From positions 1 through 64,000 of the forward strand of contig NZ_BKCF01000004.1 in the NCBI RefSeq assembly GCF_009014635.1: 64,000 bases of DNA. Reading direction: 5' to 3'. How positions within the stretch are numbered: the stretch's first letter is position 1; every line of letters begins with the position of its first letter. This stretch comes from Patiriisocius marinistellae (GTDB taxonomy: Bacteria > Bacteroidota > Bacteroidia > Flavobacteriales > Flavobacteriaceae). The notes under the pieces were generated by a model. It was not told the DNA's origin and did not search any database. It worked only from the letters and a program-made list of their open reading frames with translations. Both the position numbers and the translations under genes were made by a program. Below are positions 2,233-62,901 of the stretch, one piece after another.

Positions 2233-3906
2233 CTATTTAATAAATTTAAAATAATCTAACAATACTTCATCATTAACCATAGATGGGGTGAAGATTTCAA
2301 GAAGTTTTGGACCTTCGGAAATATTAAAAAATGAAGTTAATTGCTCTTTGACAGAAATAGTATTATTAGCAGTATGATACTCAAAACCAAACTGCTCGCA
2401 CAATTGTTTTGCGGTCATGTTATGTTTTGTTTCAAAAAATTCTTCAAACTTATCTGAGAATTTAGCTTCTGGTAGAATTCTAAAGATACCACCACCTCCG
2501 TTATTTACAACGATTATTTTAAAATTTTGAGGTATATAATTATTCCACAAAGCGTTACTGTCATAGAAAAAACTTAAATCTCCCGTAATGAAAATTGTTT
2601 GTAATTTTGATGCGTATGCTGCACCAATAGCAGTTGTTGTGCTACCATCGATTCCACTTGTTCCTCGGTTACAAAATATGTGTACGCTTGCATCAAAATT
2701 AAATAACTGTGCATACCTAATGGTAGCACTATTACTTAATTGTAATTGTATGTTTTGAGGTAGTTGTTTAAAAATTTGAGCAAAAACAGAGAAATCTGAA
2801 TATGGAATTCTATTTACATATTGTTCGTGCTTTTCCAAACGTTTATTTTTAATGTCTAACCATTGTGGGTTATAATCACCTTTAAGTTTATTGGTTAATG
2901 GCAAAAATTCTTTTAGAAAGCTATTAATATCAATTTTAATATGCTCTTTTAGATTAAAATAAGTATCATAAGCTTTTTTATCATCTATGTGCCAATGAAC
3001 TGTGGGCGAATAATTTCTTAAAAATGCCTTTATCTTTTTTGATATTATCATCCCTCCAAAAGTGAGTAATATATCTGGTTGTAAATCTTTAAATTCTGCC
3101 TCGGTTAGTGGTGCAATTAATTGATCAATTGCTGGAAAGAAATCTGGATGATGAAGATTTGATGTAGTTTCTGTCAATACTATTACACTATCATCTTTTG
3201 CTAGCTCATCTAGTAAGTGTTGTTCAATACTTTCTGGTGGAACAACGCCTGCAAGAATTATTTTACGATGTGCATTGTTCCACTGGTTTGCTAATGGTTT
3301 TAAAATTTCCGCAGAAAGAATACTTTTTTTATCAATAGTTCTTGCTGGAACATTTTGAGGGTGTACTGTAAGGGTTTCAACGGTACGGTATAATGGTTCA
3401 CTAAATGGCGCATTGATATGTACAGGACCATTGAGTTCTATCGCTGTGTTTATTGCGATGTTAATTTCGGTTTCATTATGAGTTTGATGCTCTTCACCTT
3501 CAATACAATTTGCGCTATACAAAACATGATTGCCATAAACGTTTTCTTGTTGAATGGTTTGACCATCTCCTATTTCTATGAGGTGTGCAGGTCTGTCTGC
3601 CGAAATTACAATAAGCGGAATGTCGCTATAAAAAGCCTCTGCTATGGCAGGAAAATAATTTAATAATGCAGAACCAGATGTACATACAAGTACTACTGGT
3701 TGTTTAAGTTGCTGGGCTATACCTAGTGCAAAAAATGCTGCGCAACGCTCGTCAACTATTGAAAATTTTTTAAAATTATCGTCACCTACAAACCCTGTAA
3801 TCAAAGCGGCATTGCGAGAACCTGGAGAAATTACTATATGATCAACTGCTTTTGCGAGACATAGTTGCGTTATGGTCTGAGAAAGGGATTTGTTTGAAAA
3901 TTTCAT
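2233..3906 (-). CDS. menD: 2-succinyl-5-enolpyruvyl-6-hydroxy-3-cyclohexene-1-carboxylate synthase
   Basis: Cytosolic ThDP-dependent enzyme that joins isochorismate and 2-oxoglutarate in menaquinone synthesis. The N-terminal pyrimidine-binding half has VISPGSRNAAL and the cofactor-activating glutamate in IVDERCAAFFALGIA; the C-terminal pyrophosphate-binding half has GDLSFFYDSNALW followed by VVNNGGGGIFRILPE. The length (557 aa) is normal for MenD. I chose the ATG at 3906 (MKFSNKSL) rather than a start five codons upstream, because homologues begin about there and a TACATTTG -7-like box at 3911-3918 would place transcription start very near this ATG. It follows menI and menF on the same strand with a 90-bp gap after menF. 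A copy of the dispersed CTTCGGAAATATTAA sequence is embedded in the 3' part (2313-2327), where it encodes NISEG. Confidence 0.95.
   Translation of the reverse strand: MKFSNKSLSQTITQLCLAKAVDHIVISPGSRNAALITGFVGDDNFKKFSIVDERCAAFFALGIAQQLKQPVVLVCTSGSALLNYFPAIAEAFYSDIPLIVISADRPAHLIEIGDGQTIQQENVYGNHVLYSANCIEGEEHQTHNETEINIAINTAIELNGPVHINAPFSEPLYRTVETLTVHPQNVPARTIDKKSILSAEILKPLANQWNNAHRKIILAGVVPPESIEQHLLDELAKDDSVIVLTETTSNLHHPDFFPAIDQLIAPLTEAEFKDLQPDILLTFGGMIISKKIKAFLRNYSPTVHWHIDDKKAYDTYFNLKEHIKIDINSFLKEFLPLTNKLKGDYNPQWLDIKNKRLEKHEQYVNRIPYSDFSVFAQIFKQLPQNIQLQLSNSATIRYAQLFNFDASVHIFCNRGTSGIDGSTTTAIGAAYASKLQTIFITGDLSFFYDSNALWNNYIPQNFKIIVVNNGGGGIFRILPEAKFSDKFEEFFETKHNMTAKQLCEQFGFEYHTANNTISVKEQLTSFFNISEGPKLLEIFTPSMVNDEVLLDYFKFIK
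2313..2327 (+). repeat. Dispersed CTTCGGAAATATTAA copy inside menD
   Basis: Exact 15-base copy. The match to the spacer copy at 10579 continues for 23 identical bases, and on past one mismatch. It is in frame in menD (antisense to the strand given). Confidence 0.6.
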
Positions 3907-3910
3907 TATA

Positions 3911-3918
3911 CAAATGTA
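3911..3918 (-). promoter_or_regulatory. Possible -7 box for menD
   Basis: Read on the minus strand this is TACATTTG, matching the Bacteroidota TAnnTTTG -7 consensus, five bases before the chosen menD ATG. If used, the transcript would be nearly leaderless. No -33 TTTG was evident at the usual spacing. Confidence 0.25.
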
Positions 3919-3996
3919 CAAATGCTTGTCTCATTTTTGAAGAAAAGAATTGAATTTTAGAAACCGAATAATTTATTATTTATAAATAACTCGTAG

Positions 3997-5068: not shown

Positions 5069-5488
5069 TTATCTACGTAAAGTGAGCGTTGTTAGTTTTA
5101 CCATAGATATTAATTCTTCATTTTCATTCTCAATAGCAATATGCCATAATTGTGTTGTACGCCCTTTATGCAAAATTTTTGCTTTTGCGTATACAAACCC
5201 TTCTTTAATACTCTTTATGTGATTTGCTGAAATTTCAATCCCACGTATTGCAACATCTTTTTCATTTAAAAAGATAAATGCTCCTGCACTTCCCACACTC
5301 TCAGCAAGCGCTACTGAAGCCCCACCATGCAAAACTCCATCTGGTTGATGTACTCGTGAGTTAACTGGCATCTTTGCCGTTACAGTATCTTCGGAAATAT
5401 TAATAAATTCAATATTAAGTGTTTCCATTAATGTGTTTTTACACATGTTGTTACACTTTTTTAAAATTTCGGCTTTATTTAAACCCAT
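5069..5488 (-). CDS. menI: PaaI-type hotdog thioesterase, probable 1,4-dihydroxy-2-naphthoyl-CoA hydrolase
   Basis: A 139-aa hotdog-fold thioesterase. The conserved PaaI-family core is HQPDGVLHGGASVALAESVG (about residues 47-66), which holds the HGG turn and the catalytic acidic residue on the following helix; it continues with the family pattern EISANHIKSIKEG. It is the first gene of a minus-strand run menI-menF-menD with 4 bp between it and menF. That position supports DHNA-CoA hydrolysis in the menaquinone pathway. The hotdog fold alone does not fix the substrate, so the MenI role is inferred from context. A dispersed-repeat copy (5389-5403) lies inside the gene and encodes NISED. Confidence 0.8.
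   Translation of the reverse strand: MGLNKAEILKKCNNMCKNTLMETLNIEFINISEDTVTAKMPVNSRVHQPDGVLHGGASVALAESVGSAGAFIFLNEKDVAIRGIEISANHIKSIKEGFVYAKAKILHKGRTTQLWHIAIENENEELISMVKLTTLTLRR
5389..5403 (+). repeat. Dispersed CTTCGGAAATATTAA copy inside menI
   Basis: Exact 15-base copy, antisense to menI and in frame as NISE, the same tetrapeptide as in menD. Confidence 0.6.
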
Positions 5489-7046: not shown

Positions 7047-7068
7047 GTCTAATATTTCCGAAGTAATT

Positions 7069-10578: not shown

Positions 10579-10593
10579 CTTCGGAAATATTAA
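10579..10593 (+). repeat. Dispersed CTTCGGAAATATTAA copy between VWA gene and menE
   Basis: Exact copy in the 131-bp spacer, 16 bp after the menE stop (minus strand). It shares 23 identical bases, continuing after one mismatch, with the copy inside menD. Confidence 0.6.
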
Positions 10594-10608: not shown

Positions 10609-11703
10609 CTATTGTTCGTTAGGCTTAATAAACTTATATCTTGCTAATAAACCTTTAATTTCATTACGCTTAATTTTTCCATTTTCTGTTAGTGGAAATT
10701 TTGATAACGTGTAAATTTTCTTAGGACGCTCATATTGTGACAGTTTCTGAAATACTTCAGAATAATTGGAGATTTTTGTTGAATCTTCGGTTTCTAAAAC
10801 TAGAATTACCCGCTCGCCTAACGCTTCGTCTTTCTTTGATGAAATTATAAAAGGGAGGTTTATTTCCGAAGATATTTTCTTTTCTATTTGTTCAGGAAAG
10901 ACTTTTACCCCACCAGTGTTTATGACATTGTCAAAGCGCCCTAACCAAATAAAAGAAGTGGGCGTTAACAGTGTGACTAAATCATTTGTTACAATTATAT
11001 TTTGAGAGATACCAGCCGCTTCGATAATTAAACATCCTCTTTCATCTATTGAAAATTTAACGTTTGGGAGCGCTGCGTATTCTATGGTTCTGCCTGCTCC
11101 GTTGATTCTTCGTACAGCAACATGCGTTATAGTTTCGGTCATCCCGTATGTAGCAAATGCTTCTACGTTTTTTTGTTGTAATAATTCTTCGAGTTCGCTT
11201 GAAATTTCGCCTCCTCCAATGATTAATTTTTTAACCTTATTAAGAGCTTTCATTGAATGATAGACTTGATAGGGCACCATTGCTGCAAAATCATACTTAT
11301 TGTCATACTGGGTAATCGCGTCCTTCTCGGGTGCAACAACATGCAAATCCCATCCCATTGTTAACGCTCTTACGAGCATCATTTTTCCTGCAATGTATTT
11401 TGCTGATAAACATAAAATAGCAGTATTGCCTTCTCCCATTTTAAAAAAAACTCCTGTAGCTTTTGCACTATTAATCATGTGCAATTTTTGAAGCTTTATT
11501 TTTTTTGATTTTCCAGTTGAGCCGCTTGTTTTAACTTTAATGTAATTTTCTTCATTAAACCATTTTATAATAAACTTTGCAACGTGTTGTTCAAACTTTA
11601 CTCCATCTTCTTTGAGTCGATGTGCAAATGCAAGTAAATCATCTGGATGGTCAAATTGAAGACCGTTAAATTTAAAAGCTGGGTGGAGTTGTGAGGTTAA
11701 CAC
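10609..11703 (-). CDS. menE: o-Succinylbenzoate-CoA ligase
   Basis: An ANL-superfamily adenylating enzyme that activates o-succinylbenzoate with CoA in menaquinone synthesis. The P-loop-like motif is KTSGSTGKSKKIKL (about residue 60), the adenine-binding motif is ATYGMTETITHVA (about 190), the hinge/ribose Asp is in WLGRFDNVINTGGVKV, and the C-terminal catalytic Lys is in TENGKIKRNEIK. At 364 aa it is shorter than Proteobacterial MenE because of a reduced N-terminal subdomain, as in other Bacteroidota. The start is a GTG at 11703; an in-frame stop lies shortly upstream and no ATG occurs early enough, so a non-ATG start looks real. It is last in the menA-menC-menE run, 42 bp after the CPBP gene. 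Confidence 0.92.
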   Translation of the reverse strand: MLTSQLHPAFKFNGLQFDHPDDLLAFAHRLKEDGVKFEQHVAKFIIKWFNEENYIKVKTSGSTGKSKKIKLQKLHMINSAKATGVFFKMGEGNTAILCLSAKYIAGKMMLVRALTMGWDLHVVAPEKDAITQYDNKYDFAAMVPYQVYHSMKALNKVKKLIIGGGEISSELEELLQQKNVEAFATYGMTETITHVAVRRINGAGRTIEYAALPNVKFSIDERGCLIIEAAGISQNIIVTNDLVTLLTPTSFIWLGRFDNVINTGGVKVFPEQIEKKISSEINLPFIISSKKDEALGERVILVLETEDSTKISNYSEVFQKLSQYERPKKIYTLSKFPLTENGKIKRNEIKGLLARYKFIKPNEQ

Positions 11704-15614: not shown

Positions 15615-18600
15615 TTACTTCACTAGTAACTTTTGGGTTGCTCCTTGGCTATTCTTTATAATGTATGTTCCAGCGGTCATTGATGCTGTATTCATTGATG
15701 CTACATTTTTTAATTTTACAATCTCACGCCCTAACATATCATACACCATATATGTGTCTGGCGTGTTGAAAAATACGGTTCCGTTTGATGGGTTTGGATA
15801 GATTTTAAAACCATTATTTGTTACAATAAAATCTTGTGTTCCTAAAACAACATTGTCTAATGAAATAATGCTTAATGTTGCGCTTACTTCATTTGCGACA
15901 ACTAAATACGCTGTTCCTGTAGTACTTTCCTCTGCACTTACATATACTAATCCCTCTGGTCCTAAATCTCCCATTTCAGTTCCTCCTGGAGTAGCCTCCC
16001 TATTATTGATGTATTGTAAATATTGTGGTGCCGCTGGGTCTGTAACATTATAAATCATTACTCCACCTATTCTTTCTAATAAAATGAAAGCATAAAATTC
16101 ACCATCAATTTCTTTAACTAAAACTCCTTCTGGCTCTGGACCTTTATTGTCGCTTCGGTTTTTTGGGTTGTTGTTTGCGTTACTTGCATTGAAAATTCCA
16201 CCAAGAATAGGATCGGCAGCTGTGATAACTTCAAAATCATTTCCACTATCGTATATTAAGGTACCTGTTGCAGCTTCAAAAATTGAGAATGAACGCCCAC
16301 CAAAAACGTGCAACTCTTCGTAAAATCCATCGCCATCGCTATCCCCAGAAGCAGACGAAAAGTTTAATGCGCCTAAATTACTTCCAAGGTTTAAAATTTC
16401 CGAAGTACTAAAAACTGTGGTGTTTAAGTTTAAGTCACTTATGTTTACTTCCTCTTCAAATGCATCATACTCTCTTGCATCACCTTCGTTTGCAGTAACG
16501 ATATAATCTACACCACCCACGCTGTAAAATGCAATGGCATCTGGCATGTACATCCCTTTAATTGGCCATGAGGCGTTAAAAATAAAATCTGTCTCATCGC
16601 TTGTGTCTAAGGAGTTCTGCGGAAATGAATGGTCTTTTAAACCAAATGTTTTAATATCAATTACCGTCGCCGTTTCTATATCTATAATTGCATATGCATT
16701 GTTTTCTTGCAGCGCTACGTAAGCTGTTGCGGAGTCATCAGAAATTGCAATATATTCTGGTTCAAAATCTTGTGAAGCATTTGCATTAGGACCATAAACT
16801 CTAATTCCGTTTGCGTTTAACATTACTTCTTGACCGTTATAAGCGTTAAAATTTACACTTGTTACATTACTCTGATCAATTGCAGAAAGTCCTCCTGAAA
16901 CATCAATTATTGAAATTGTTCCTTCTGGATCAATTGTGTAATCGTTATTAGGTTGTCCTTCGTTTGCTACGAGTAATTTTGTTTCATCTGGTGTGAATGT
17001 TAGCATATCTGGTAATACTCCTACTTCAACAATTACAGGAGTTTCATTCCCTAAAGTATCTGAAAATGCTACAAATCCATTTCCTGTCTCATCATTGTTT
17101 GCAATGGCGATGGCAAGTAAATTACCATTCACTGCTACACTCTGTGCAGATGCTCCCACTGGAGTAATATCTGCAAAATCAATTTGTGAAACGTTTGAAG
17201 GGTCATTAAAGTCTAAAATATTGATCGTTGCAGCATTTACCACAAATAATTGTTGGTTGATTGGGTCATAAGCAACAATCTCTGCCGTTCCATCTTCATC
17301 AACTGTGTAACTAGTTAAAAAGTTTGCGTCAAGCTGTGAACTATCACCTACTGGCACAACCGTATCATCATCCAGAATATAAACCGAAAATAAATCATTT
17401 GTACCTACTGACGCATTTGTAGCGTTCTCTGCTTGTACTACAAAAAACACATCTGAGTTATCATCTGTATTGTTTAGCAACGGTATTGTAAATGATTGGT
17501 CTGCATTACTTCCTGCTGGAAATATAACAGTTTGTACTATTGCAAATGTAAAATCTGTTCCTTCTAAAGCAGTTCCTCCAGCAACTAATGAAACATCAAT
17601 AGTTGCATTTGTTGTTGGTGTGTCGCTTATACTTAATGTAACAGTAGCTAATCCTGCATCCTCAGAAACTGAAATATACGCTGTATCAAAATTAATAAAT
17701 GCTAAAGGTGTTGCTGGCAACCCATTTCCTGGCGAACCTATATTAGGTACATCACTATTTGCACCTCCAAGTTCGATAGTTTCAACGGCTCCATTTGCAT
17801 TACCTACAACACTAAAGGCTGATAATTCTACATCATAAGATTGTCCATCGTTTGCAGCTGTATCTGGGTATATTCCAGTTGCGATAGGTCTTGTTGTAGC
17901 TGGGTCTCCCAACCACAAAACAACAGTATCTCCACCTGCACCGAGCCCTGCGCCGTCTGTATTTCCTATTTGTATTCCTGTCAAATCTATTACTTGACTC
18001 CAAATATTTGTAAATGTTGTAATATCTGAAGTATCTCCTGTTACTAAAACTATCGCTGTTGCTCCTGGCTGAATTTCTGTTATTCCTTGAACAGCATCTG
18101 CTGTTGTAGGATCTGCAGATTCATCATCATAAAACAAATCACCATCTGTTGCAGCTACATAAGCAACTGTTCCCGTGTTTTTAATTTCAAACCAGTCTGC
18201 AGTTAAGTCTGTTCCTGCTTGACCTGAAAATATTTCTGTAATTTCTAATTGTGGTGTTGCGACAACTGCTTCTCCTTCAAATAATATATTGTCTATTGTT
18301 AATGCTTCGGAACCTGAATTTAGTCGAACCTCTATCACTAACTGCGCTTGTATATTTGCTGGTACTGATGCTAATCCTGTTATCCAAGTGTTTTCTATCA
18401 TCAAATCGTTAATATCACTTCCTGTAGTATTAAGGATGTCTATCTCTGTCATATTTGTCAAATCACGCACGTAAATTCTCATACGGTCGCTCCCACTTTC
18501 ATTTACGGTACCATCACCTTCATATCCAGTATCATTAATATGATAATCAACTTTTACAGTTGTATTTATGTACCCCGAAAAATCAACTATATCAAATTCA

Positions 18601-21373: not shown

Positions 21374-21388
21374 CTTCGGAAATATTAA
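21374..21388 (+). repeat. Dispersed CTTCGGAAATATTAA copy upstream of holA
   Basis: Exact 15-base copy in the divergent spacer between holA and the 21523 gene. Confidence 0.6.
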
Positions 21389-23987: not shown

Positions 23988-24050
23988 ATATCTTTTCTCT
24001 TCGGAAATCTTAATCATTTCACTCCTCTTTTTTTTAAATAGAATATAAAC

Positions 24051-24100: not shown

Positions 24101-25801
24101 ATGAAAGACGACTATAAGTCTCAACAATACGATACCATAATTATAGGTGCAGGTGCAGGTGGTCTAGCTTCAGCAATTTGTCTTGCAAGAGAAGGTCAAA
24201 AAGTTTTAGTTTTAGAGCAGCATGATGTTCCTGGAGGTTGGTGTCACAGTTTTTACCTCAACGGTCATAGATTTACCCCCGGAGTACACTACGTAGGACT
24301 TTGCGGAAATGAAGGAGATGGAAACTCTACAAGCGAATTATACGAGGGACTTGGAATAGGTGGTAACCTTACGTTTTTTCAAATGAATCCCACAGCTTAC
24401 GAGCATTGCTGGATTGGGGAAGAAAGATTTGATTATCCTTCCACACACGAAGAGCTTATTAAACGTTTACAAGAACGTTTTCCACATGAAAAAAAAGGCA
24501 TAAAAAAATATTTGAATCTATTAAAAAGAGTTGGTTATCAATTGAGCTTAATTCCTGAGGTTAAAACTTTCTGGGATAAAGTAACCATTCCATTTCGCAC
24601 AAAAGATATGGGAAAATATGGCTTATTTACTTTACAGCGCGTAATAGATTGGCATATTAAAGACCCCCTACTTAAAGATTTTTTAAATGTACAATATGGT
24701 GACCATGGCGTAGAGCCAGACCGTGCAAGCTTCGTTTTACATGCTGCTTTAATGAATCATTATTTTAAAGGAGGTTATTACCCAATGGGTGGTGGTGGTG
24801 CCATTATCAAGGCTATGACTAATGCTATAAAAAAACATGGTAGTAAGGTAAAAACAAGTACAGCTGTAAAAAAGATATTGATTGAAGGTAATAAGCAAAA
24901 ACGTGCTATTGGTGTGGAACTTGAAGATAGCACTCAATTATTTGCAAAAAATATTATCTCAAACGCAGACCCTGGAATAACGTATAATACCTTAATAGGT
25001 AAAGAAAATTTAAGTAAAAAACTCTATGAAAAATTGGGTAAAGCTAAATACTCTTGCACATCATTGATGCTTTTTTTAACAGTAGATATGGATGTTAGGG
25101 CTGCGGGATTAGACTCTGGAAATATCTGGATGCTTGAAGGAGGTAACATGAGTGAAAATTTCCGAAGAAATCAACAAGCAGATATATTAAGCGATGAAAC
25201 CTTTACCGGAATGTTTATTAGTTGTACTACTTTAAAAGATCCACCAAGTTTTGATGGGAGATACCATACAATTGAAGCAATTACCTATATTAATTATGAT
25301 TCTTTTAAAAAATATGAAAACGAAGATTTAGAACGCTCTGAAGGTTATTTAGATTTTAAAGCTAGGCTTACTGAAAAAATGATTAGGACCTTAGAAAAAG
25401 CTTTGCCTACAGTACGCAATCATATTGTTCATAAAGACCTTGGCACACCAATTACTAATGAATTTTATGTAAACTCTACTCATGGTAGCGTTTATGGAAC
25501 TGAAAAAACACTTAAACACATAGGTCCGTTTGGATTTAAAGCTAAAAGCGAAGTTAAAAACTTATACCTCTGCGGAGCAAGTATTGCTGCTCATGGTGTT
25601 GCTGGTGCAAGTTACAGCGGTGTTCAAACTGCAGGATTAATTTTAGGAAAAAAACAAAACGAATTACTACTACCCAATCCAGAACAGCAAGTTAAAACCT
25701 ATAATGCTGAAGACTCAAGTGAATATCCACAATGGATTTTGAAAAAGATGGAAGTTAAAAAAGCAAAACTAGCATCTGGTGTAAATAAGTTTGCTACATA
25801 A
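24101..25801 (+). CDS. RetSat/phytoene-desaturase-like FAD-dependent oxidoreductase
   Basis: A 566-aa flavoprotein of the CrtI/all-trans-retinol 13,14-reductase group. The N-terminal Rossmann motif is TIIIGAGAGGLASAICLA (GxGxxG, about residue 15), followed by VLVLEQHDVPGGWCHSF and FTPGVHYVG. A GGGGAIIKAMTNAIKKHGSKV stretch and a C-terminal FAD-contact segment (LYLCGASIAAHGVAGASYSG, about residue 490) are also characteristic. Substrate could be a carotenoid, retinoid or other polyprenoid; none of the usual carotenoid genes (crtB, crtY) is adjacent, so the substrate is open. It is a single gene between the OmpA gene and the ATPase gene. A CTTCGGAAAT copy lies within it on the minus strand (25158-25166). 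Confidence 0.85.
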   Translation: MKDDYKSQQYDTIIIGAGAGGLASAICLAREGQKVLVLEQHDVPGGWCHSFYLNGHRFTPGVHYVGLCGNEGDGNSTSELYEGLGIGGNLTFFQMNPTAYEHCWIGEERFDYPSTHEELIKRLQERFPHEKKGIKKYLNLLKRVGYQLSLIPEVKTFWDKVTIPFRTKDMGKYGLFTLQRVIDWHIKDPLLKDFLNVQYGDHGVEPDRASFVLHAALMNHYFKGGYYPMGGGGAIIKAMTNAIKKHGSKVKTSTAVKKILIEGNKQKRAIGVELEDSTQLFAKNIISNADPGITYNTLIGKENLSKKLYEKLGKAKYSCTSLMLFLTVDMDVRAAGLDSGNIWMLEGGNMSENFRRNQQADILSDETFTGMFISCTTLKDPPSFDGRYHTIEAITYINYDSFKKYENEDLERSEGYLDFKARLTEKMIRTLEKALPTVRNHIVHKDLGTPITNEFYVNSTHGSVYGTEKTLKHIGPFGFKAKSEVKNLYLCGASIAAHGVAGASYSGVQTAGLILGKKQNELLLPNPEQQVKTYNAEDSSEYPQWILKKMEVKKAKLASGVNKFAT

Positions 25802-29213: not shown

Positions 29214-29228
29214 TTAATATTTCCGAAG
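29214..29228 (-). repeat. Dispersed CTTCGGAAATATTAA copy before the DUF2945 gene
   Basis: Exact 15-base copy read on the minus strand, in the divergent spacer, 12 bp before the start codon. Confidence 0.6.
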
Positions 29229-32557: not shown

Positions 32558-32646
32558 ATGTTTGATTTTTAGTACTTCGGAAATATAATGGGGTTTCGAA
32601 ATAAGCAGATTTTTTACTACTTCGAAAATACTCAATTTAGGTTAAA

Positions 32647-32814
32647 ATTTCCGAAGCTATTTTCAGAAATTATAAACAAACTTTTTTTCACTTCTGAAAT
32701 GATATTAATTGAATATCTTTAGCGTTGATTGTACTTACAATTTACATTAAAGTGACATTACCGAACAAAATGCTTCATTCATTTTTCAATTAATGGTTGT
32801 ACTATATTTCCGAA
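32647..32814. repeat. Two CTTCGGAAAT copies in the uvrD-amidohydrolase spacer
   Basis: Minus-orientation copies at 32647-32655 and 32806-32814 lie in the divergent spacer, and a third is just inside the extended uvrD frame (32576-32584). The spacer (32636-32842) otherwise holds no gene. Confidence 0.55.
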
Positions 32815-32842
32815 GTAAAGCGAATTAAGTAAAATAAAAAAT

Positions 32843-37005: not shown

Positions 37006-37787
37006 ATTATTTTTTGATTAGTAGGTTTATATTGAATTTTAAGTTGTGTTCCTTTTTTCTCTTCGGAAATTAGCTGCAATTGGGCACCTATTAATTTTGC
37101 TCTATTTTTCATATTCAATAGTCCTATTCCTTCAATTTTTGACATTTCGGCGAAGCCAATACCATTGTCTTTAGCTTCCATTGTTACTATTTCTGAAAAG
37201 GAAATAACTACTTCTAGATTAGATGCTTTTGAATGTTTTATTGTGTTTGAAAAAAACTCTTGAAGTATACGAAACAAAATAATCTCATGATTTGCATTAA
37301 ATGAAAATGGGCTTCCACTAATCTCTAAAGATGCGTTTATAAATTCTAGCCTATTGAACCTGTCAATCTCTAATTGGACAGCCTCAGAAAGAGATAAGCT
37401 TTTAAGTACATCTGGATTTATTAATTTTGATAATGCACGCAATTCATCTAATCCTGTGCCTATAGTTTGTACCATTTCGTCAATACGTTCTGGATGGTCT
37501 TTAATGCTCTGTGCTTGTATTTTTGCTAATGTCAATAATTGGCCAATATTATCATGTAACTCCCAACTTATATTGCGAAGGGTTGCCTCCCTGATCTCAA
37601 TTTGTGATTCGGCAAGCTCCTTTTCAAACGATTTTTTAGCTTGTTCCTGTTCTTTAACTAGTGAGTTTTTACTCCCCATAAATACAAGCAATAGTACAAT
37701 AATGACTACTGCCAGCAAAAGTGCAATACCAATTAGCGTAACGCTAAATACTTCTTTTTCGCCACTAATAAGCCCACTATAAAGCAT
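37002..37787 (-). CDS. Membrane histidine kinase of the NarX/DegS type (HisKA_3)
   Basis: A 261-aa kinase. One membrane helix (about residues 16-36: FSVTLIGIALLLAVVIIVLL) leads into a dimerisation helix with the phospho-acceptor in ISWELHDNIGQLLTLAKIQ (His about residue 78). The ATP-binding domain has FFSNTIKHSKASN (N box), MEAKDNGIGFAE (G1) and EGIGLLNMKNRAKLIGA (G2). There is no extracellular sensor domain, so sensing likely depends on the neighbouring polytopic protein. The chosen ATG (37787) places 55 bp of the gene inside the upstream gene, and its end overlaps the response regulator start by 4 bp. Confidence 0.9.
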   Translation of the reverse strand: MLYSGLISGEKEVFSVTLIGIALLLAVVIIVLLLVFMGSKNSLVKEQEQAKKSFEKELAESQIEIREATLRNISWELHDNIGQLLTLAKIQAQSIKDHPERIDEMVQTIGTGLDELRALSKLINPDVLKSLSLSEAVQLEIDRFNRLEFINASLEISGSPFSFNANHEIILFRILQEFFSNTIKHSKASNLEVVISFSEIVTMEAKDNGIGFAEMSKIEGIGLLNMKNRAKLIGAQLQLISEEKKGTQLKIQYKPTNQKII

Positions 37788-39414: not shown

Positions 39415-39495
39415 CCTCAGTAATGCTAACCAACCATTACTTGGCGGTAACTGAAAAGCCACAAAAAAAGAGTAGGTATTATTAAAACTTTTATC

Positions 39496-41596: not shown

Positions 41597-41629
41597 ATAT
41601 TTTTTTACTTCGGAAATTTTAAACAATAG

Positions 41630-43693
41630 TTACTTTTCCGAAGCCTTAAAACCTATTCTTTCAAGATACTCTTTTTCTGTATCTGAAAATTGCGAATAGA
41701 TTTCCTTAACTTTATTGCTATATTTTTCTTCTTTTAAAACCTCGGTGAGTAAAGTGCGAGCACTGTCTCTAAACCTCCAATAATGATGTGTACTAGCATT
41801 TACTAATGACGCTAAGGATGTATCATCAAAAATTCCTAAATAATTTACATACTCAAAAGCTTTTTCTCGTATTTCAAAAGAGTAGTTGTTTGATGTATAA
41901 TTATTTAGTTCACTTGTAAAATTTGCTGCGTTCTGCTTTTGGTAGCCTTCTGTTAACATTGCGAGAACTAACCAAATTTGACGCACATTCTTATCTTGAA
42001 AACCAACAATACCTTTGGTTTTGTCTAAATATTTTGGCATTTGGTTTGGTAATGCTTTTCTTAATAAAAGTAAAGCCGCTTCAATAGTCACGTAGCTTTC
42101 ATCATTTAGTAAAGATTCAAAATCTGCTTTTAATACATTAGGTATTGCCCCTTCGTACGAAATTGCAATCGCTTGTCGCGTCATTAAATTATTACTCTCA
42201 AAGGCTTTCTTTAAATATGGAATCACTTTCTCAACAGGCTCCGCAGTTAATTGAAAAACAGCCTCTTGACCTAAATACTCATTGTTAAAAGTCAACGCAG
42301 TGGTCAATGGTATTTTCTTTTCGGCTATTGCTACTGGTCGCAAAGAAGAAAGCTCAAAATATTCTTTTATAAATGGTGACGCTAGTAAAGACTCATATGC
42401 TTGATTGGCCTGAAAGGCCGTTTGTTGAAGCCAGTCTTTTTCCCAATTGTCTATCGTAATTGTTGTATTACGTTTGACCATATTTAAAAAATTATCTGTT
42501 TCTACATTTTTAAATGCATGTTCTTCGAGGTATTGCTTAATAGTGTTTTTAAATGCGGTATCCCCTATTCGCTCTCTCAAAATATGTAATGCCCATGCTC
42601 CTTTTTCATAAAAAGTAAGTGAAGATGCTTTTGGGTCTAAAAGAGATTGCCCTTTTCCAGCCTCGCTTACCTCTTGTAAACTGTTTGCTGATTGTAACAA
42701 TTTCCAATAGTAATAATCATCACCATAGATTTCTCGTTCTGCCAATAGCGCATAATACGTTGCAAAACCTTCTTGCAACCAATGGTGAGTTCCAGAGGTT
42801 TCTGTCACTAGATTTCCAAACCATTGATGCGCTAATTCATGCGCATTTACGTTTGTATAATCTCTATCATTTATGCCTATTTCGTCAACGACAAAAGATT
42901 CAGAAAAAATAGTGCAACTTGTATTCTCCATACCTGCATACAGAAAATCGCGCACAGGAACTTGTTTGTAATTTTGCCAAGGGTACGGAACGTCTATTTC
43001 ATTTTCTAAATAATCAAAAATGGTTTTTGTGTGCTTATACGTAGTTTTTACAATTGCTGAATCGTTAGGCCTATAATATAACTCAATAGGAATTCCACTT
43101 GCCGAAACCACTGTAGTTTTATTATAATCTCCCATTGCAAAAGCTACTAGGTAACTTGACATTGGGTTTTCCATGTCGAAAAAATATTCTTTAAAATTAT
43201 CTTTTCTAATTATATCTACTAATATTCCATTACTTAAAATAGTTTGTGTTTCTGGAACAACATATTTTAAATCAAACTCAATCTTATCATTCATGTCATC
43301 AATACTCGGTAGCCAGTGCGATGTATTTTTCCCTTGTCCTTGTGTCCATATATGATCGCCAGTAAAATAAAGCGCCTTTTTAGGTTTTGCAACGTATTGA
43401 AAATTGACCTCGTAGGTATTACCCGCTTTAAAATTGTTGTGGAAAATAATTTTATCATCGGTGTAATAAATTTTGGTATCACCGTCTTTCGCATCGGGGC
43501 GCTCCATATTAATCGCGTCTAGATAAACTTTATCTATATCCTTCAAAATGGTAAATGAGACAAAAACATCTCCATTGACAGACATTTCCGAAGCATTGGG
43601 CATTATCGTCGCTGTGATTTTTTTGAAATCAACAATATTTGTTTGCTGGGAAAAAGATGCGATTGAGGCAAAGAGTAAAAGATATTTTATCAA
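41630..43693 (-). CDS. M1-family zinc aminopeptidase
   Basis: A 687-aa exported metallopeptidase. The start is a TTG at 43693 (IKYLLLFASIASFSQQ follows); no ATG occurs before the signal peptide. The N-terminal beta domain is followed by the exopeptidase signature YAGMENTS (GxMEN type), the zinc site NAHELAHQWFG (HExxH, about residue 287) with the third ligand Glu in WLQEGFATYYALLA, 19 residues on, and the catalytic Tyr region in SLTFYEKGAWALH. The C-terminal 250 residues are helical repeats. It trims N-terminal residues from peptides in the periplasm or outside. Convergent with the T9SS gene. Confidence 0.92.
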   Translation of the reverse strand: MIKYLLLFASIASFSQQTNIVDFKKITATIMPNASEMSVNGDVFVSFTILKDIDKVYLDAINMERPDAKDGDTKIYYTDDKIIFHNNFKAGNTYEVNFQYVAKPKKALYFTGDHIWTQGQGKNTSHWLPSIDDMNDKIEFDLKYVVPETQTILSNGILVDIIRKDNFKEYFFDMENPMSSYLVAFAMGDYNKTTVVSASGIPIELYYRPNDSAIVKTTYKHTKTIFDYLENEIDVPYPWQNYKQVPVRDFLYAGMENTSCTIFSESFVVDEIGINDRDYTNVNAHELAHQWFGNLVTETSGTHHWLQEGFATYYALLAEREIYGDDYYYWKLLQSANSLQEVSEAGKGQSLLDPKASSLTFYEKGAWALHILRERIGDTAFKNTIKQYLEEHAFKNVETDNFLNMVKRNTTITIDNWEKDWLQQTAFQANQAYESLLASPFIKEYFELSSLRPVAIAEKKIPLTTALTFNNEYLGQEAVFQLTAEPVEKVIPYLKKAFESNNLMTRQAIAISYEGAIPNVLKADFESLLNDESYVTIEAALLLLRKALPNQMPKYLDKTKGIVGFQDKNVRQIWLVLAMLTEGYQKQNAANFTSELNNYTSNNYSFEIREKAFEYVNYLGIFDDTSLASLVNASTHHYWRFRDSARTLLTEVLKEEKYSNKVKEIYSQFSDTEKEYLERIGFKASEK

Positions 43694-48509: not shown

Positions 48510-50939
48510 ATGAAGATCTCATACAACTGGCTAAAACAATTTATTAAAACCGACTGGGAAGCCGAAAAAACTGGCGAACTCCTTACTGACCTTGGATTAG
48601 AAATTGAAGGAATAGAACAATATTCTTCAATTAAAGGCGGATTAAAAGGTATCGTAGTTGGTCACGTACTCTCATGCGAACAACACAACAATGCAGACCG
48701 CTTAAAGGTGACAAAAGTAGATCTTGGCGATGGCAATATTGTACAAATAGTTTGTGGAGCACCTAATGTTGCTACTGGTCAAAAAGTACCTGTAGCTACT
48801 ATAGGAACTACACTTTATGATGCAGAAGGCAACCCTTGGCAAATAAAGAAAGGAAAAATAAGAGGCGAAGTAAGCGAAGGAATGATTTGTGCAGAAGACG
48901 AACTTGGGCTAGGAAAAGGGCATGATGGCATTATGGTGCTTGATGAAAAAATTGCTCCTGGAACGTTAGCTTCGGAAATATTAGATGTTGAAAATGACGA
49001 AATTTTTGAAATAGGGTTAACGCCCAACCGCGCTGATGCAATGAGCCACTGGGGTGTTGCAAGAGATTTAAGAGCTGGTTTAATTCAAAAAGATATTTCA
49101 ATGGAATTAATTACTCCATCAACATCAAATTTTCATATTGAAGACCGTACTCGAAAAATTGAAATCAATGTTGAAAATAATGAACTTGCACCAAGATATT
49201 GTGGTGTAAGTATTTCAGAAATCGTAGTGCAAGAATCTCCTGCATGGCTTCAAAACAGATTGAAAGCTATAGGACTTGCACCTATTAACAACATTGTTGA
49301 CATCACTAATTATATTCTCCACGAGCTTGGACAACCATTGCACGCATTTGACGGCGCAAAAATTGAGGGTAATATAATTAATGTAAAAACACTTCCATCA
49401 GGCACTAAATTTACAACCCTTGACGGCGTAGAACGAACATTGCATGAAGAGGATTTAATGATTTGTAATGAGAATAAGCCTATGTGTATTGCTGGAGTTT
49501 TTGGCGGTATAGATAGCGGGGTTACAAATAGTACATCTAGCATTTTCTTGGAGAGTGCATATTTCAATCCTGTAAGCATTCGTAAAACTGCAAAACGTCA
49601 TGGATTAAACACAGATGCTTCTTTTCGTTTTGAGAGAGGCATTGACCCTAATATCACAGAATACGCATTAAAACGTGCTGCTATTTTAATATGCGAGATT
49701 GCTGGTGGAAAAATAAGTAGCGATATAATTGATGTGTATCCCAAAAAGATTGAAGATCATCAAGTATTTTTAAATTATGAAAAGGCAAATAGCCTTATAG
49801 GCGAAGAGATTTCTAAAGAAACCATAAAAAGAATACTTACTTCTCTTGAAATCAAAGTAAATAACGTTACTGAAACAGGTATAGGAATGACCATCCCAGC
49901 CTATCGCAACGATGTGACAAGAGAGGCAGATGTAATTGAAGAGGTTTTACGTGTTTATGGTTATAATAACATTAAAACTACACAAAAATTAAATGCGTCA
50001 ATTGCAACTACTCACGGAGTTCAAGATTATAAAATTCAAAATAAGGCAGCTACATTTCTTGCGAGTATAGGCTTTAATGAAATGTTGAACAACTCGCTCA
50101 CTTCTCCTAAATATTTAGAGTTAAGTGAAGGTTTGAGTAATGACAACGATGTATCTATGCTTAATCCATTGAGCCAAGAATTATCTGTTATGCGACAGTC
50201 TATGCTATTTGGTGGATTAGAATCCTTAGCATATAATGCAAACCGAAAAGCTACAAACATAAAGCTATTCGAATTTGGGAAAACCTACCACAATTACAGC
50301 GATAAGCGTGAAGAGATGAGTCATCTATCACTATTAATTTCAGGAAATAAAACTCAAGATAATTGGCATAACGCTACAGCTCAAAAGGGTGATTTTTTCT
50401 ACGGAAAAGGGGTAGCGATGTCAATTTTAGAGCTGTTGGGAATTAATGGAACGATTGAAAGAGAATTGAAAAACTCATTGTTTTCTGAAGGTATTGCAAT
50501 AGCAAAAAAGAAAAAAGTATTAGTTGAGTTTGGTGTTATATCAAAGAAAGTAACAAAACATTTTGGCCTTGATACAGAAATTTTATACGCAGATTTTCAA
50601 TGGAATGCAATACTTTCAGAAATATCCACATCAAATTTCACAGTACAGCCTATTCCTAAATTTCCGAAGGTGAAAAAAGATTTCTCTTTGTTATTAGATG
50701 AAGGGGTATTATTTTCAGATTTAAAAAATACGGCATTTCAAACAGAACGAAGTTTATTAAAGGAAGTTAACCTTTTTGATGTTTATACTGGAAAAAATCT
50801 CCCAAGTGGAAAAAAATCGTACGCATTGAGTTTTACACTACAAGATGAAAACAAAACGCTTACAGATAAGCAAATTGACAAAATTATGGGGAAACTGCAA
50901 CAACGATTTGAAAAAGATTATGGAGCCAGTTTGAGATAA
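48510..50939 (+). CDS. pheT: Phenylalanine-tRNA ligase beta subunit
   Basis: Beta chain of the alpha2-beta2 enzyme that charges tRNA-Phe. The 809-aa length is normal. The N-terminal MKISYNWLKQFIKTDWEA is followed by an EMAP-II-type tRNA-binding domain (VVGHVLSCEQHNNADRLKVT, VCGAPNVATGQKVPVA), B3/B4 editing (NNIVDITNYILHELGQPLHA), B5 (NVTETGIGMTIPAYRNDVTR), a catalytic-like core and a C-terminal FDX-ACB anticodon-binding domain (FPKVKKDFSLLLDEGV, KSYALSFTLQDENKTLTDKQ). The alpha subunit gene is not in the window. Two CTTCGGAAAT copies lie within it (48971, 50660). Confidence 0.97.
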   Translation: MKISYNWLKQFIKTDWEAEKTGELLTDLGLEIEGIEQYSSIKGGLKGIVVGHVLSCEQHNNADRLKVTKVDLGDGNIVQIVCGAPNVATGQKVPVATIGTTLYDAEGNPWQIKKGKIRGEVSEGMICAEDELGLGKGHDGIMVLDEKIAPGTLASEILDVENDEIFEIGLTPNRADAMSHWGVARDLRAGLIQKDISMELITPSTSNFHIEDRTRKIEINVENNELAPRYCGVSISEIVVQESPAWLQNRLKAIGLAPINNIVDITNYILHELGQPLHAFDGAKIEGNIINVKTLPSGTKFTTLDGVERTLHEEDLMICNENKPMCIAGVFGGIDSGVTNSTSSIFLESAYFNPVSIRKTAKRHGLNTDASFRFERGIDPNITEYALKRAAILICEIAGGKISSDIIDVYPKKIEDHQVFLNYEKANSLIGEEISKETIKRILTSLEIKVNNVTETGIGMTIPAYRNDVTREADVIEEVLRVYGYNNIKTTQKLNASIATTHGVQDYKIQNKAATFLASIGFNEMLNNSLTSPKYLELSEGLSNDNDVSMLNPLSQELSVMRQSMLFGGLESLAYNANRKATNIKLFEFGKTYHNYSDKREEMSHLSLLISGNKTQDNWHNATAQKGDFFYGKGVAMSILELLGINGTIERELKNSLFSEGIAIAKKKKVLVEFGVISKKVTKHFGLDTEILYADFQWNAILSEISTSNFTVQPIPKFPKVKKDFSLLLDEGVLFSDLKNTAFQTERSLLKEVNLFDVYTGKNLPSGKKSYALSFTLQDENKTLTDKQIDKIMGKLQQRFEKDYGASLR

Positions 50940-56019: not shown

Positions 56020-56034
56020 CTTCGGAAATATTAA
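56020..56034 (+). repeat. Dispersed CTTCGGAAATATTAA copy after a terminator
   Basis: Exact 15-base copy, 7 bp past the hairpin ending the 54590 gene. Confidence 0.6.
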
Positions 56035-60000: not shown

Positions 60001-60330
60001 TTAGCAACATTCTGCTTTTGAAATATCTTGATTTAAAAATTGCGACATAACTTCTTTCATTTTTACCCAATTTTCAGTGTTAATACAATAGCAAACACTA
60101 GTTCCTTCGACATTACCTTTAATTAAGCCTAAATGTTTTAATTCTTTAAGGTGTTGAGAAATTGTAGGTTGCGCAAGCCCTATCTCATTTACTAAATCAC
60201 CACAAACACAACTATTTATATTAAACAAATGTTGTAATATAGCAACCCTTGCTGGATGCCCAAATACCTTTGCAAACAAAGCTATTTCATTTTGTTGATC
60301 TGTAAACATCTCGGTTTTTGCTAATCCCAT
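60001..60330 (-). CDS. arsR: ArsR/SmtB-family arsenic-sensing repressor
   Basis: A 109-aa winged-helix regulator, first gene of the ars operon. The recognition region is GLAQPTISQHLKELKHLG (about residues 58-75), just after an As(III)-type Cys pair in INSCVCGDLVNEI (CVC, the classic ELCVCDL-like site). More Cys are in TSVCYCINTENW and the protein ends ISKAECC. As(III) binding should release it from DNA. Two similar 20-base elements (60350-60369 and 59968-59987) carry the palindromic ATCGTAATATTGCAAT type of sequence and are likely its operators. Confidence 0.94.
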   Translation of the reverse strand: MGLAKTEMFTDQQNEIALFAKVFGHPARVAILQHLFNINSCVCGDLVNEIGLAQPTISQHLKELKHLGLIKGNVEGTSVCYCINTENWVKMKEVMSQFLNQDISKAECC

Positions 60331-60349
60331 AAGTTCCTTTTATTACTTG

Positions 60350-60369
60350 ATTGCAATATTACGATTAAT
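60350..60369 (-). promoter_or_regulatory. Candidate ArsR operator 1
   Basis: Read on the minus strand it contains ATCGTAATATTGCAAT, an imperfect palindrome, 20 bp before the arsR ATG. Confidence 0.6.
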
Positions 60370-60467
60370 ATATGTAAGTCTAAAATTTTATTAAAAAAAT
60401 TAATGAAAATAGTTAGATAGAATTAGGTTTTCGAAGTTTAAAGTCCTTGACTTTAGGGTACAAAAAA

Positions 60468-60562
60468 TGGCAAGCTACCTACATCACACTGCTACGACCG
60501 TCTACCCTTGCTGCGTTCCCACCCTGGGGGATTCAACAGGAGCTAGTTGTGTAGGACTTGCC
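60468..60562 (-). ncRNA. ffs: Signal recognition particle RNA (small bacterial type)
   Basis: Read on the minus strand it contains the Bacteroidota SRP signature: an AGCTCCTGTTGAATCCCCCA stretch followed by GGGAACGCAGCAAGGGTA, which forms the conserved apical hairpin that binds Ffh. The ends pair: GGCAAGTCCTACAC at the 5' side with GATGTAGGTAGCTTGCC at the 3' side. About 95 nt. The ends are estimated from base pairing. It fills most of the 319-bp gap between arsR and the glutaminyl cyclase gene, which holds no protein gene. Confidence 0.9.
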
Positions 60563-60649
60563 GCTGCAAAGATACTTCTTTTCCCTTCTTTTGCAATAAT
60601 TTTTCCAACTCATTTTTAATAAATATCTTGCGTAAAAAATAGCCGCGTT

Positions 60650-61699
60650 ATGAAATTTGCTAATCTACTAATTGTCTTTGTTTTACTGTTATTAATTACA
60701 AGTTGTGATGAAGAAATTAAAAATCCTAATCAACATTTTTCAATTGAAATAAAGGATAATAAAAAGAGTTTTACAACTTCGGAAACGGTAGCTATAACAC
60801 TAATAAGTAAAAAGGGGAAACCTATTGATAATGTTTCCTACTCGCTAGACGAAAATCCATTTGATGGAAAAACGAGTGGTGCATCGCTTAATATTTCCGC
60901 AGAAAAACTTGGCGAACGTACCATAAATGCAACGATTACTTCTGAGGGAAATGATTATACTATTTCAAAACCTTTTACAATTTTATCATCTGTAAAACCT
61001 AAACTATATGGCTACAGAGTTCTTGAAGTTTACCCACATGATCAAGAAGCTTATACACAAGGATTAGAGTTTGAGGGTGAAGACTTATATGAAAGTACAG
61101 GCCAACGTGGATTTTCTGACTTGAGAAAAACGAACTATAAAACTGGCGAAGTCCTCATTGATAACGATTTAAAACCTCAATTTTTTGGTGAAGGTTTAAC
61201 AATTTTAAATGATAAATTATATCAACTCACATGGCAAGCTGGACAAGGGATTGTTTATGATTTTCCTTCATTAAAACAAAACACAACGTTTAAATATAAT
61301 AAAAGCAAAGAAGGCTGGGGACTAGCAAACGACGGTACAAAAATTTATAAAAGTGATGGCACTGAAAAAATATGGACTCTTAACCCAAACACCCTTGCCG
61401 AAGAAGATTATATAGAAATATATACAAACACAAGTAAAGTAAAAAGTGTTAACGAGCTTGAATGGATTGAAGGAAAAATTTTTGCGAACGTTTATCAAAG
61501 CGAGGCTATAGCAATAGTTGACCCTGCAAACGGCGCTGTAACTGGCATTATCAACATGAAAGGCTTAAAAGAGAAAGTGACTCAGCACAACCAGCTTGAT
61601 GTTTTAAACGGGATTGCTTATAAAGGTGAACCAAATATTATTTATGTTACGGGGAAAAAATGGGATAAGCTTTTTAAGATAGAGATATTTGAAAAGTAA
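60650..61699 (+). CDS. Lipoprotein glutaminyl-peptide cyclotransferase
   Basis: A 349-aa protein with lipobox (LLLITSC, then DEEI). Residues 25-110 form a beta-sandwich, and 115-349 are the plant-type glutaminyl cyclase beta-propeller: VYPHDQEAYTQGLEFEGEDL, YESTGQRGFSDLRKTNYKTG, FGEGLTILNDKLYQLTWQ, EGWGLANDGTKIYKSDGT and NELEWIEGKIFANVYQS. It converts N-terminal Gln to pyroglutamate, which suits many T9SS and exported Bacteroidota proteins that begin with Gln after signal cleavage. Starts at an ATG. Confidence 0.9.
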   Translation: MKFANLLIVFVLLLLITSCDEEIKNPNQHFSIEIKDNKKSFTTSETVAITLISKKGKPIDNVSYSLDENPFDGKTSGASLNISAEKLGERTINATITSEGNDYTISKPFTILSSVKPKLYGYRVLEVYPHDQEAYTQGLEFEGEDLYESTGQRGFSDLRKTNYKTGEVLIDNDLKPQFFGEGLTILNDKLYQLTWQAGQGIVYDFPSLKQNTTFKYNKSKEGWGLANDGTKIYKSDGTEKIWTLNPNTLAEEDYIEIYTNTSKVKSVNELEWIEGKIFANVYQSEAIAIVDPANGAVTGIINMKGLKEKVTQHNQLDVLNGIAYKGEPNIIYVTGKKWDKLFKIEIFEK

Positions 61700-61797
61700 T
61701 TTTTTTAACTCTCCCTCAATCAAAACATCCATTCCCTCAATTGTCATTTTAAATAACCTATGTTAAACTCACCTTTGTGGTAACAAAACCATTAAAG

Positions 61798-62901
61798 ATG
61801 AAAAAGACTATACTTGTAAAAATTCCAAAACCTTGTCATGAGGATTGGAAGAAAATGACTCTAACAGAAAAAGGTAGACATTGTGCTTCTTGCGAAAAAG
61901 AAGTGACAGACTTTACTCAAAAAAGCGACGAGCAAATTTTTAAAATTCTAAAAGAAAACCCTAATAGCTGTGGACGATTTAAGAAAACACAGCTAAATAG
62001 AGAGATTATACTTCAACGAAAATCTACAACATCTCTTGCTCCATATGCTGCTAGTTTATTGTTACCGTTGACATTATTGGGGAGTCTAAACAGTAAGGCT
62101 TCTTCAAAAGAAAATAAAACTGAAAGTGTATACAAATCAATAGGTATTGGCAAATTTAGTGATACTACAATACCCTCAAAAGCCGTCAACCTTACTATTG
62201 GGGTTGTAACGGATGGCTTCGGAAATGCAATAAAAAACGTAAAAATTACTTCTATTGAAACAGGCGTTGTATCCTATACAAATTACAAAGGCGAATATAA
62301 AATTACCTGTAATCATGGAGAAACTCTCCTTTTTGAAGCTGCAAATTTTGATCCTTCTAAAATTATTATTAAAAACCAAAATAAAATAAAAAATGTATCT
62401 CTAAATAAAAACCAAGCCCTAATAAAAATATCAGGCACAGTGACTGACAGTAGCGGTTTGCCTCTACCTGGTGTAAATATTATTGTAAAAGGCACAACAA
62501 GTGGAACACAAAGTGATTTTGATGGGCTTTATAATATAAATGCTGAGGAAGGACAATCCTTAGTTTTTAGCTATGTGGGGTTTGATAATGTTGAAAAAGT
62601 TATTTCAGAACATTCAAAAACAATTAACCTAATGATGGAAGAAAACATTACTGGTGGTTTTTATACCGTAGGATTAATTATTTCAGAACCATCAGGCCCA
62701 TCAATAATGCCCTTTGGAAACATCTCTTTTGCTTATGATTATGAAAGAGATGCTATTAAGAAAAAACAAAGAGACGCTTATGAAAATGGATTAAAATTTA
62801 AGCGTAGAAAATGGAGAGAAAAAAGAGAAGCAAGAAAATTAAAAAGAAAACAACGAAAAGAAAAGAGATTTGAAAAACTAAAAAACAAAAGTAGAAATTA
62901 A
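61798..62901 (+). CDS. Membrane protein with a Cys-rich N-terminus, carboxypeptidase-like domain and basic tail
   Basis: I start at 61798 (MKKTILVKIPKPCHEDW), giving 367 aa; a GTG at 61777 would add seven residues. Residues 10-65 contain PCHEDWKKMTLTEKGRHCAS (Cys, His, His, Cys) followed by CEKEVTDF and SCGRF, a repeated flavobacterial motif that may bind a metal. One membrane helix follows (SLAPYAASLLLPLTLLGS, about 75-92). Residues 130-200 and 208-285 are two carboxypeptidase-regulatory-like beta-sandwiches (GVVTDGFGNAIKNVKI, GLPLPGVNIIVKGTTSGTQS). The last 60 residues are extremely basic (KFKRRKWREKREARKLKRKQ). Function unknown; topology N-in with a periplasmic C-terminal part is inferred. 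Confidence 0.8.
   Translation: MKKTILVKIPKPCHEDWKKMTLTEKGRHCASCEKEVTDFTQKSDEQIFKILKENPNSCGRFKKTQLNREIILQRKSTTSLAPYAASLLLPLTLLGSLNSKASSKENKTESVYKSIGIGKFSDTTIPSKAVNLTIGVVTDGFGNAIKNVKITSIETGVVSYTNYKGEYKITCNHGETLLFEAANFDPSKIIIKNQNKIKNVSLNKNQALIKISGTVTDSSGLPLPGVNIIVKGTTSGTQSDFDGLYNINAEEGQSLVFSYVGFDNVEKVISEHSKTINLMMEENITGGFYTVGLIISEPSGPSIMPFGNISFAYDYERDAIKKKQRDAYENGLKFKRRKWREKREARKLKRKQRKEKRFEKLKNKSRN

Follow-up and report, generated by a model that had tools for sequence, protein, structure and literature searches.

A recurrent word at the start of contig 4

The stretch of DNA analysed here (the window) comprises 64 kb of Patiriisocius marinistellae DNA from the very start of contig 4 (NZ_BKCF01000004.1) in a genome of 3,338,299 bases and 30 contigs, referred to below as G000. 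Its genes and spacers are dotted with a short word, the 9-mer TTCGGAAAT, for which a preliminary description made from the sequence alone had listed 20 exact copies. All 20 are present, the only correction being that the final copy starts at 62218 and not at 62219, and since the 10-mer CTTCGGAAAT is likewise present 20 times in the window, a C stands before every copy of the 9-mer. Together with a T-rich tract on its 5' side and a TnAA on its 3' side, CTTCGGAAAT is read here, at roughly even confidence, as the central part of a 'self' sequence for DNA uptake in P. marinistellae and some of its relatives.

The six exact 15-mers CTTCGGAAATATTAA that had been reported in the window were recovered. 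On the forward strand they begin with the copies at 2313-2322 (15-mer to 2327), 5389-5398 (to 5403), 10579-10588 in a spacer (to 10593), 21374-21383 at the start of an open reading frame (ORF) with a GTG start (to 21388) and 56020-56029 in a convergent spacer (to 56034), and on the reverse strand the copy at 29219-29228, in a divergent spacer, forms part of the 15-mer 29214-29228. The remaining forward-strand copies are found in spacers at 23999-24008 and 41608-41617 (the latter convergent), within ORFs at 37061-37070, 48970-48979 and 62217-62226, and near the start of a uvrD-like ORF at 32575-32584. This last copy is the left member of an inward-facing pair with a spacing of 72 bp, the right member of which, at 32647-32656 on the reverse strand, lies in a divergent spacer shared with another reverse-strand copy at 32806-32815. 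The other reverse-strand copies are placed in a convergent spacer at 7054-7063 and within ORFs at 10862-10871, 16396-16405, 25158-25167, 43584-43593 and 50660-50669.

Both strands are used, as had been noted, with 11 copies on the forward and nine on the reverse strand. The proposed division into 11 copies in genes and nine in spacers was a fair one: by mechanical longest-ORF calls, which define genes throughout this work, 8 of the 20 are intergenic, and the copy at 21374 coincides with the start of the GTG-start ORF. The estimate that chance would provide about one copy per window was also accurate, 100 dinucleotide shuffles giving a mean of 0.94 and a maximum of 4.

Genome-wide abundance and extended consensus

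The word was followed through the whole genome by direct counts and through a sample consisting of the window and 60 stretches of 20 kb each (1.264 Mb, 38% of the genome). In the whole genome, TTCGGAAAT occurs 865 times (440 on the forward and 425 on the reverse strand) against 68 occurrences (30 and 38) of the same word read backwards, and CTTCGGAAAT occurs 833 times (428 and 405) against 16 (4 and 12). The sample contains 334 copies of CTTCGGAAAT, where an order-3 Markov background predicts 2.5; a count near Markov expectation, named beforehand as one outcome that would refute the excess, did not occur. Among 145 copies of TTCGGAAAT in the first 464 kb, the preceding base is C in 98%; the true core is the 10-mer CTTCGGAAAT rather than the 9-mer. 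Around this core, the extended consensus consists of a T-rich 5' side (positions -9 to -1), CTTC[G/T]GAAAT, a T at +11 and an A at +13 and +14. At a threshold of 10 bits, the extended motif gives 1082 matches in the 1.264 Mb, compared with 134 in a single sequence generated from a Markov model; extrapolated, the matches amount to about 2500 per genome or about 1 per 1.3 kb.

Perfect copies of CTTCGGAAAT are accompanied by a nearly equal number of singly mismatched ones, 334 and 331 respectively, the latter against 84.5 expected by chance. The ratio of perfect to mismatched 10-mers is thus 1.01, compared with an expected 0.03; it is likewise 1.01 in the congener G001, and the corresponding 9-mer ratios are 0.41 and 0.80. 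The mismatches are concentrated in certain changes: T3 is replaced by A in 29 copies and by G in 27, G5 by T in 72, A7 by C in 16, and T10 by A in 30 and by C in 31, where 1.3-6.4 would be expected for each. Transversions account for 230 of the mismatched copies (54 expected) and transitions for 101 (30.5 expected). These position-restricted variants look like tolerated alternatives and not like decay. The CTTCGG within the core, and the tolerance of A or G at position 3, might call to mind an RNA hairpin with a UNCG tetraloop, but this was rejected, as the flanks are not complementary.

Placement in genes, in spacers and along the chromosome

Of the 334 copies of CTTCGGAAAT in the sample, 205 lie inside ORFs, 128 in spacers and 1 on an edge, which corresponds to a density about 6 times higher in spacers than in genes. 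Chance combined with codon usage is one of several explanations (the others being terminators and inserts of the repetitive extragenic palindromic (REP) or miniature inverted-repeat transposable element (MITE) type) that even taken together appear very improbable. For this one, synonymous codon shuffling within genes leaves 8.35 copies (standard deviation 2.2, 20 runs) where 206 are observed, so codon usage is rejected as the explanation, and the Markov comparison given above leaves chance no better placed. Copies inside genes fall in several reading frames, with 67, 57 and 51 of the 205 encoding I-S-E, S-E and F-G-N, respectively.

The types of spacer are used at similar rates per base: in 464 kb, 35 copies were found in 23.4 kb of co-directional, 13 in 11.5 kb of divergent and 11 in 7.3 kb of convergent spacer. 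No preference of the word for gene ends was detected. This proportionate use stands against terminators, although inverted pairs of uptake signals do act at terminators in Neisseria, according to the part of PMC3630211 drawn on here.

With respect to replication, the five 100-kb bins in which GC skew is negative contain 80 copies on the forward and 68 on the reverse strand; the seven in which it is positive contain 91 and 75. The same strand ratio at both signs of the skew argues against polar signals of the FtsK type. A recombination or replication signal comparable to Chi or to the FtsK-orienting polar sequences (KOPS) would also be short, frequent and present in both genes and spacers, but the lack of polarity relative to GC skew makes it the least probable of the explanations considered.

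Along the chromosome, counts in 10-kb bins have a mean of 8.5 and a variance of 7.7, a spread slightly narrower than a random distribution would give. The two longest gaps free of CTTCGGAAAT measure 24.3 and 23.5 kb, near the expected maximum of 22 kb. Their interpretation as deserts left by mobile islands was rejected on these lengths and because the 23.5-kb gap is not visibly mobile, as judged from two scanned proteins. The longest gap (contig 1, 1063115-1087378) is occupied by a heavy-metal efflux cluster that includes an RND (resistance-nodulation-division) pump, HlyD, a P-type ATPase and HMBD domains. At the other extreme, 11 strict copies are packed into the 13.8 kb of contig 1 from 161528 to 175337, where 3.6 would be expected; the genes of this run have no G001 orthologue in the sample, and a gene that is RadA-like by its Pfam domains lies among or beside them.

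Inward-facing pairs

Neighbouring copies show a marked relative orientation. Within 1.264 Mb, 39 of the 51 pairs less than 300 bp apart face inward (CTTCGGAAAT followed by ATTTCCGAAG), whereas 20,000 permutations of strand labels gave a mean of 12.7 inward pairs and a maximum of 25. A whole-genome scan for gaps of 4-34 bases found 23 inward and 4 outward pairs in G000; extended to 14 genomes, the same scan found 7 outward and 39 inward pairs, the latter in 6 of the 14. The spacing is 24-27 bp in 23 of these 39, compared with 5.0 expected for a uniform distribution over 14-44. Strict sites are also accompanied downstream, at 15-300 bp, by an excess of weaker partner sites (266 versus 126.8 expected in G000, 79 versus 41.3 in G001). 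Inward-facing sites held at such a constant distance hint at two protein molecules in contact.

In the relatives, inward pairing was followed with the 8-mer CTTCGGAA. An inward excess stands out in G001 (15 of 21) and can be seen in Altibacter (10 of 19), and it is weak or absent in G437 (4 of 8), U. litoralis (5 of 12), G405 (2 of 5), G002 (3 of 5) and G402 (0 of 6). A perfect 26-bp palindrome at 4198-4223 of contig 11 in G001, CTTCGGAAATATTAATATTTCCGAAG, corresponds to two fused copies.

The paired arrangement may point to a binding site for an abundant intracellular protein, such as a nucleoid-structuring or global factor, that binds cooperatively to inward sites at least about 25 bp apart. 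The 39 of 51 inward pairs, the 24-27 bp spacing and the surplus of weaker partner sites all speak for such a protein, as do the position-specific, mainly transversional variants, which resemble those of a binding site. Conversely, most copies are solitary, six congeners carry almost none, and the ten proteins scanned in the flanks of tight pairs have no visible common theme. Helical phasing is likewise unestablished beyond the 24-27 bp class, being not significant once that class is removed (p 0.055) or at longer spacings (p 0.13 and 0.50). The consensus would, moreover, be very strong for a factor of this kind by the argument made in the portion of PMC1626085 drawn on here. The inward pairs, together with a perfect-to-mismatch ratio of about 1.0 and the lack of depletion by gene age described below, nonetheless keep a cooperative intracellular binder in consideration, as an unlikely yet appreciable alternative. 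Since the ten proteins beside tight pairs are unrelated, an operator of one regulon was rejected.

Tight inverted pairs can also fold, as three of them do, which might point to terminators. However, among the nine pairs at 24-26 bp, four occupy divergent spacers, one lies inside a gene, four are in or at co-directional gaps and none is convergent. The T tract is 5' of the core, so that a hairpin formed by a pair has no T run on its 3' side. An intrinsic terminator was accordingly rejected: the sites do not combine a hairpin with a trailing T run at the ends of genes, and the pairs that fold lack such a run.

Distribution, dialects and conservation among relatives

The RecG encoded here has its nearest named relatives in Aequorivita, Ulvibacter, Altibacter and Marixanthomonas, which, together with an Rfam match to a small SRP RNA of Bacteroidales type, agrees with membership of the Flavobacteriaceae. 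Among 11 genomes of the genus Patiriisocius, TTCGGAAAT is found 865, 625, 505, 413 and 266 times in five, the lowest of these counts coming from a metagenome-assembled genome that is 59% complete. In the six small congeners (1.7-2.1 Mb) it is found 14-42 times, below their own reversed-word controls (49-77), and CTTCGGAA leaves at most a trace (3 versus 0.7 and 2 versus 0.5 expected in the two sampled, 4 versus 0.4 in a pool).

Within the Flavobacteriaceae, CTTCGGAAAT is raised, that is, present in at least 60 copies and at least 3 times its control, in 24 of 397 genomes and 12 of 231 genera, and its counts differ strongly within genera (66 and 345, 92 and 225, 79 and 212). The shorter CTTCGGAA is the top over-represented 8-mer in eight of nine large-genome pools and the second in the ninth, with differing 3' continuations; in smaller pools of near relatives it ranks first, second and nineteenth. 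No marked excess of it was seen in the smaller pools of Dokdonia, Aquimarina, Maribacter, Muricauda, Flavobacterium, Planktosalinus, Winogradskyella and Mesonia/Christiangramia. In the near relatives it exceeds the synonymous null within genes, for instance with 65 copies versus 6.6 in U. litoralis. In viral contigs the word was found in at least 120 stretches, with one match each among those listed; these matches were treated as chance and not used. Five loci of Dokdonia (about 84 kb) contain a different frequent word, the perfect palindrome CGCTTTCGCGAAAGCG, with CGCGAAAG present 51 times versus 1.5 expected.

This patchiness is reminiscent of the highly iterated palindromes (HIPs) of cyanobacteria, HIP1 and its alternates, which also show an extreme excess of a short word that is patchy among relatives and replaced in some of them. 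As described in the relevant part of PMC4390886, HIP1 reaches very high frequencies, differs from one lineage to another, is scarce in obligate symbionts and is tied to methyltransferases. A comparable word here would stem from a mutation bias connected with a methyltransferase or with repair, and no receptor would be involved, an idea with which its near disappearance from the small-genome congeners and the different, palindromic word of Dokdonia would agree. The HIPs are palindromic, however (PMC4390886, in the same part), and the flavobacterial word is asymmetric, flanked by a consensus and paired inward. It is not its own complement: only TTCNGAA is symmetric, 98% of the 9-mer copies retain the C at position 1, and T10 has no mirror image. 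Furthermore, a mutation bias predicts neither a flanking consensus nor inward pairing nor a 6-fold preference for spacers, and this explanation is thus quite improbable.

The origin of the copies was followed in an alignment with G001 (387 kb, 73% identity). Out of 58 aligned sites, 15 match exactly, 28 show substitutions and 15 are interrupted by gaps, and copies thus arise mostly by substitution. The mini-repeat that had been suggested as a third possibility finds no support as a copied element, given that 43 of the 58 sites are ungapped in G001 and that paired copies have no conserved interior. On the same two grounds, the absence of an interior common to paired copies and the mostly ungapped orthologous positions, elements of the REP/REPIN or MITE kind were rejected, no transposase search having been made. 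Compared with neighbouring windows, sites are retained more often than expected: 15 of 58 are identical in G001, where 3.0 would be expected (about 5-fold), and 6 of 17 in G002 (2.15 expected). Identical sites number 1 of 7 in G437, 0 of 4 in A. lipolytica, 0 of 2 in U. litoralis and 0 of 20 in two small relatives (13 and 7 sites).

Transformation genes

Natural transformation has been dissected in Riemerella, which belongs to the same bacterial order as Patiriisocius. According to the part of PMC8459023 drawn on here, it requires ComEC, DprA, ComF, RecA, an HHH protein and a DUF1343 protein, as well as a DUF5689 surface protein and an adjacent outer-membrane protein. G000 has matches to the ComEC, DprA, DUF5689 and HHH_3 families (PF03772, PF02481, PF18942 and PF12836, respectively). 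Its DUF5689 gene adjoins an ORF of 952 amino acids, of which 920 were scanned, yielding a weak carboxypeptidase-regulatory match below the Pfam cut-off. The two genes resemble the Riemerella transformation operon, and purely by analogy the DUF5689 surface protein with its beta-barrel neighbour would be the first candidate reader of the word. In the motif-rich G001, G009 and G437 this protein is doubled in tandem, with 742-756 amino acids, and it is single, in an open frame, in G000 (490 amino acids) and G002 (482 amino acids).

The word as a proposed DNA-uptake sequence

The signals of Haemophilus and Neisseria occur about once per kb, in both orientations and with many copies in genes; they comprise unusually many perfect copies, originate by mutation and form dialects in subclades, and the Haemophilus signal has an AT-rich 3' motif. 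The same part of PMC1626085, on which these statements rest, holds that a strong consensus separates uptake signals from ordinary binding sites, and each of the traits it attributes to uptake signals is seen here at least in part. It is the density, the strand balance, the strong consensus, the AT-rich flanks, the enrichment in spacers and the dialects, all of which match Haemophilus and Neisseria, that favour the uptake sequence as the best fit among the three readings first proposed for the word, none of them as proven. The motif for a chromosome-organising protein stays behind it at the lower probability given above, and the mini-repeat finds no support.

If this is what the word is, a surface DNA receptor of the transformation machinery would bind it in free DNA, and DNA from the same or a sister species would be imported preferentially. 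Repeated import and recombination, biased towards fragments that bear the word, would then spread and maintain copies born by point mutation, which would persist where the sequence tolerates them, in spacers and synonymous codons and on both strands alike. Lineages in which the preference was lost or changed would lose the word or carry a dialect. We infer that the cells are competent and that their uptake machinery reads the word. A preference for own DNA has been reported for Riemerella columbina; in the part of PMC7965970 drawn on here, k-mer counts gave only A-rich words and the question was left open. No uptake sequence for Bacteroidota was reported in the open-licence literature searched.

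Among the known systems, the uptake signal sequences (USS) of the Pasteurellaceae share with the present word a core of 9-10 bp, an AT-rich 3' flank, about 1 site per kb on both strands, a large number of copies in genes, similar numbers of perfect and singly mismatched copies, an origin by mutation and family dialects with a partly shared core (PMC1626085, in the part mentioned). They differ in the word and in the phylum, and the T-rich 5' flank, the ratio of about 1.0 and the inward pairs at 24-27 bp are additional features here. The DNA uptake sequences (DUS) of the Neisseriaceae are also short and frequent, with lineage dialects, many inverted pairs and a location in permissive spacers. 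However, pairs of DUS are tied to terminators, as far as the relevant part of PMC3630211 describes them, and the flavobacterial pairs are not at terminators. The Neisseria DUS receptor, ComP, is a pilin (PMC3868556, in the part drawn on).

Several observations weigh against an uptake sequence. The perfect-to-mismatch ratio is about 1 for the 10-mer, not clearly above it, and only 0.41 for TTCGGAAAT. Neighbouring copies face each other at a sharp 24-27 bp, which uptake through single sites does not explain. The genes of Aequorivita, Ulvibacter and Altibacter are enriched in CTTCGGAA, and their spacers are no richer in it. Uptake signals are said to be scarce in foreign or recently acquired DNA, but genes in collinear regions that G001 lacks are not depleted of the word (23 copies in 131 kb, or 1.75 per 10 kb, versus 62 in 362 kb, or 1.71, for shared genes); in spacers the corresponding densities are 10.9 and 14.8, absence from G001 being a weak stand-in for foreign origin. 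Finally, the transformation families are present in motif-poor genomes too, with ComEC in 10 of 11 members of the genus, DUF5689 in 34 of 36 genomes, DprA in 36 of 36 and HHH_3 in 39 of 39 entries searched, and across these genomes no correlation of the word with any of the four was found. Competence genes in nearly all motif-poor genomes thus permit uptake and do not favour it over its rivals.

A broader form of the uptake reading, to be held tentatively and at somewhat less than even confidence, is that of a self-recognition code in Bacteroidota, with dialects of CTTCGGAA in genera of the Flavobacteriaceae, a machinery unlike the pilus-based ones (perhaps DUF5689 with a beta-barrel) and a preference for inward pairs at about 25 bp. 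Uptake sequences have already been worked out in the Pasteurellaceae and Neisseriaceae; were the word one of them, a third group, whose outer-membrane machinery is different, would have evolved uptake specificity. Binding of the sites by a cytoplasmic protein would instead reveal a major chromosome-binding factor of flavobacteria. In either case, a sharp, lineage-variable word in the same order as R. columbina provides a concrete sequence to test, and a single genus offers a natural contrast between 833 copies and nearly none.

Other features of the window

Apart from the word, two Rfam matches were obtained in the window, a DUF805b RNA at 39441-39478 on the forward strand and a Bacteroidales small signal recognition particle RNA at 60464-60570 on the reverse strand.

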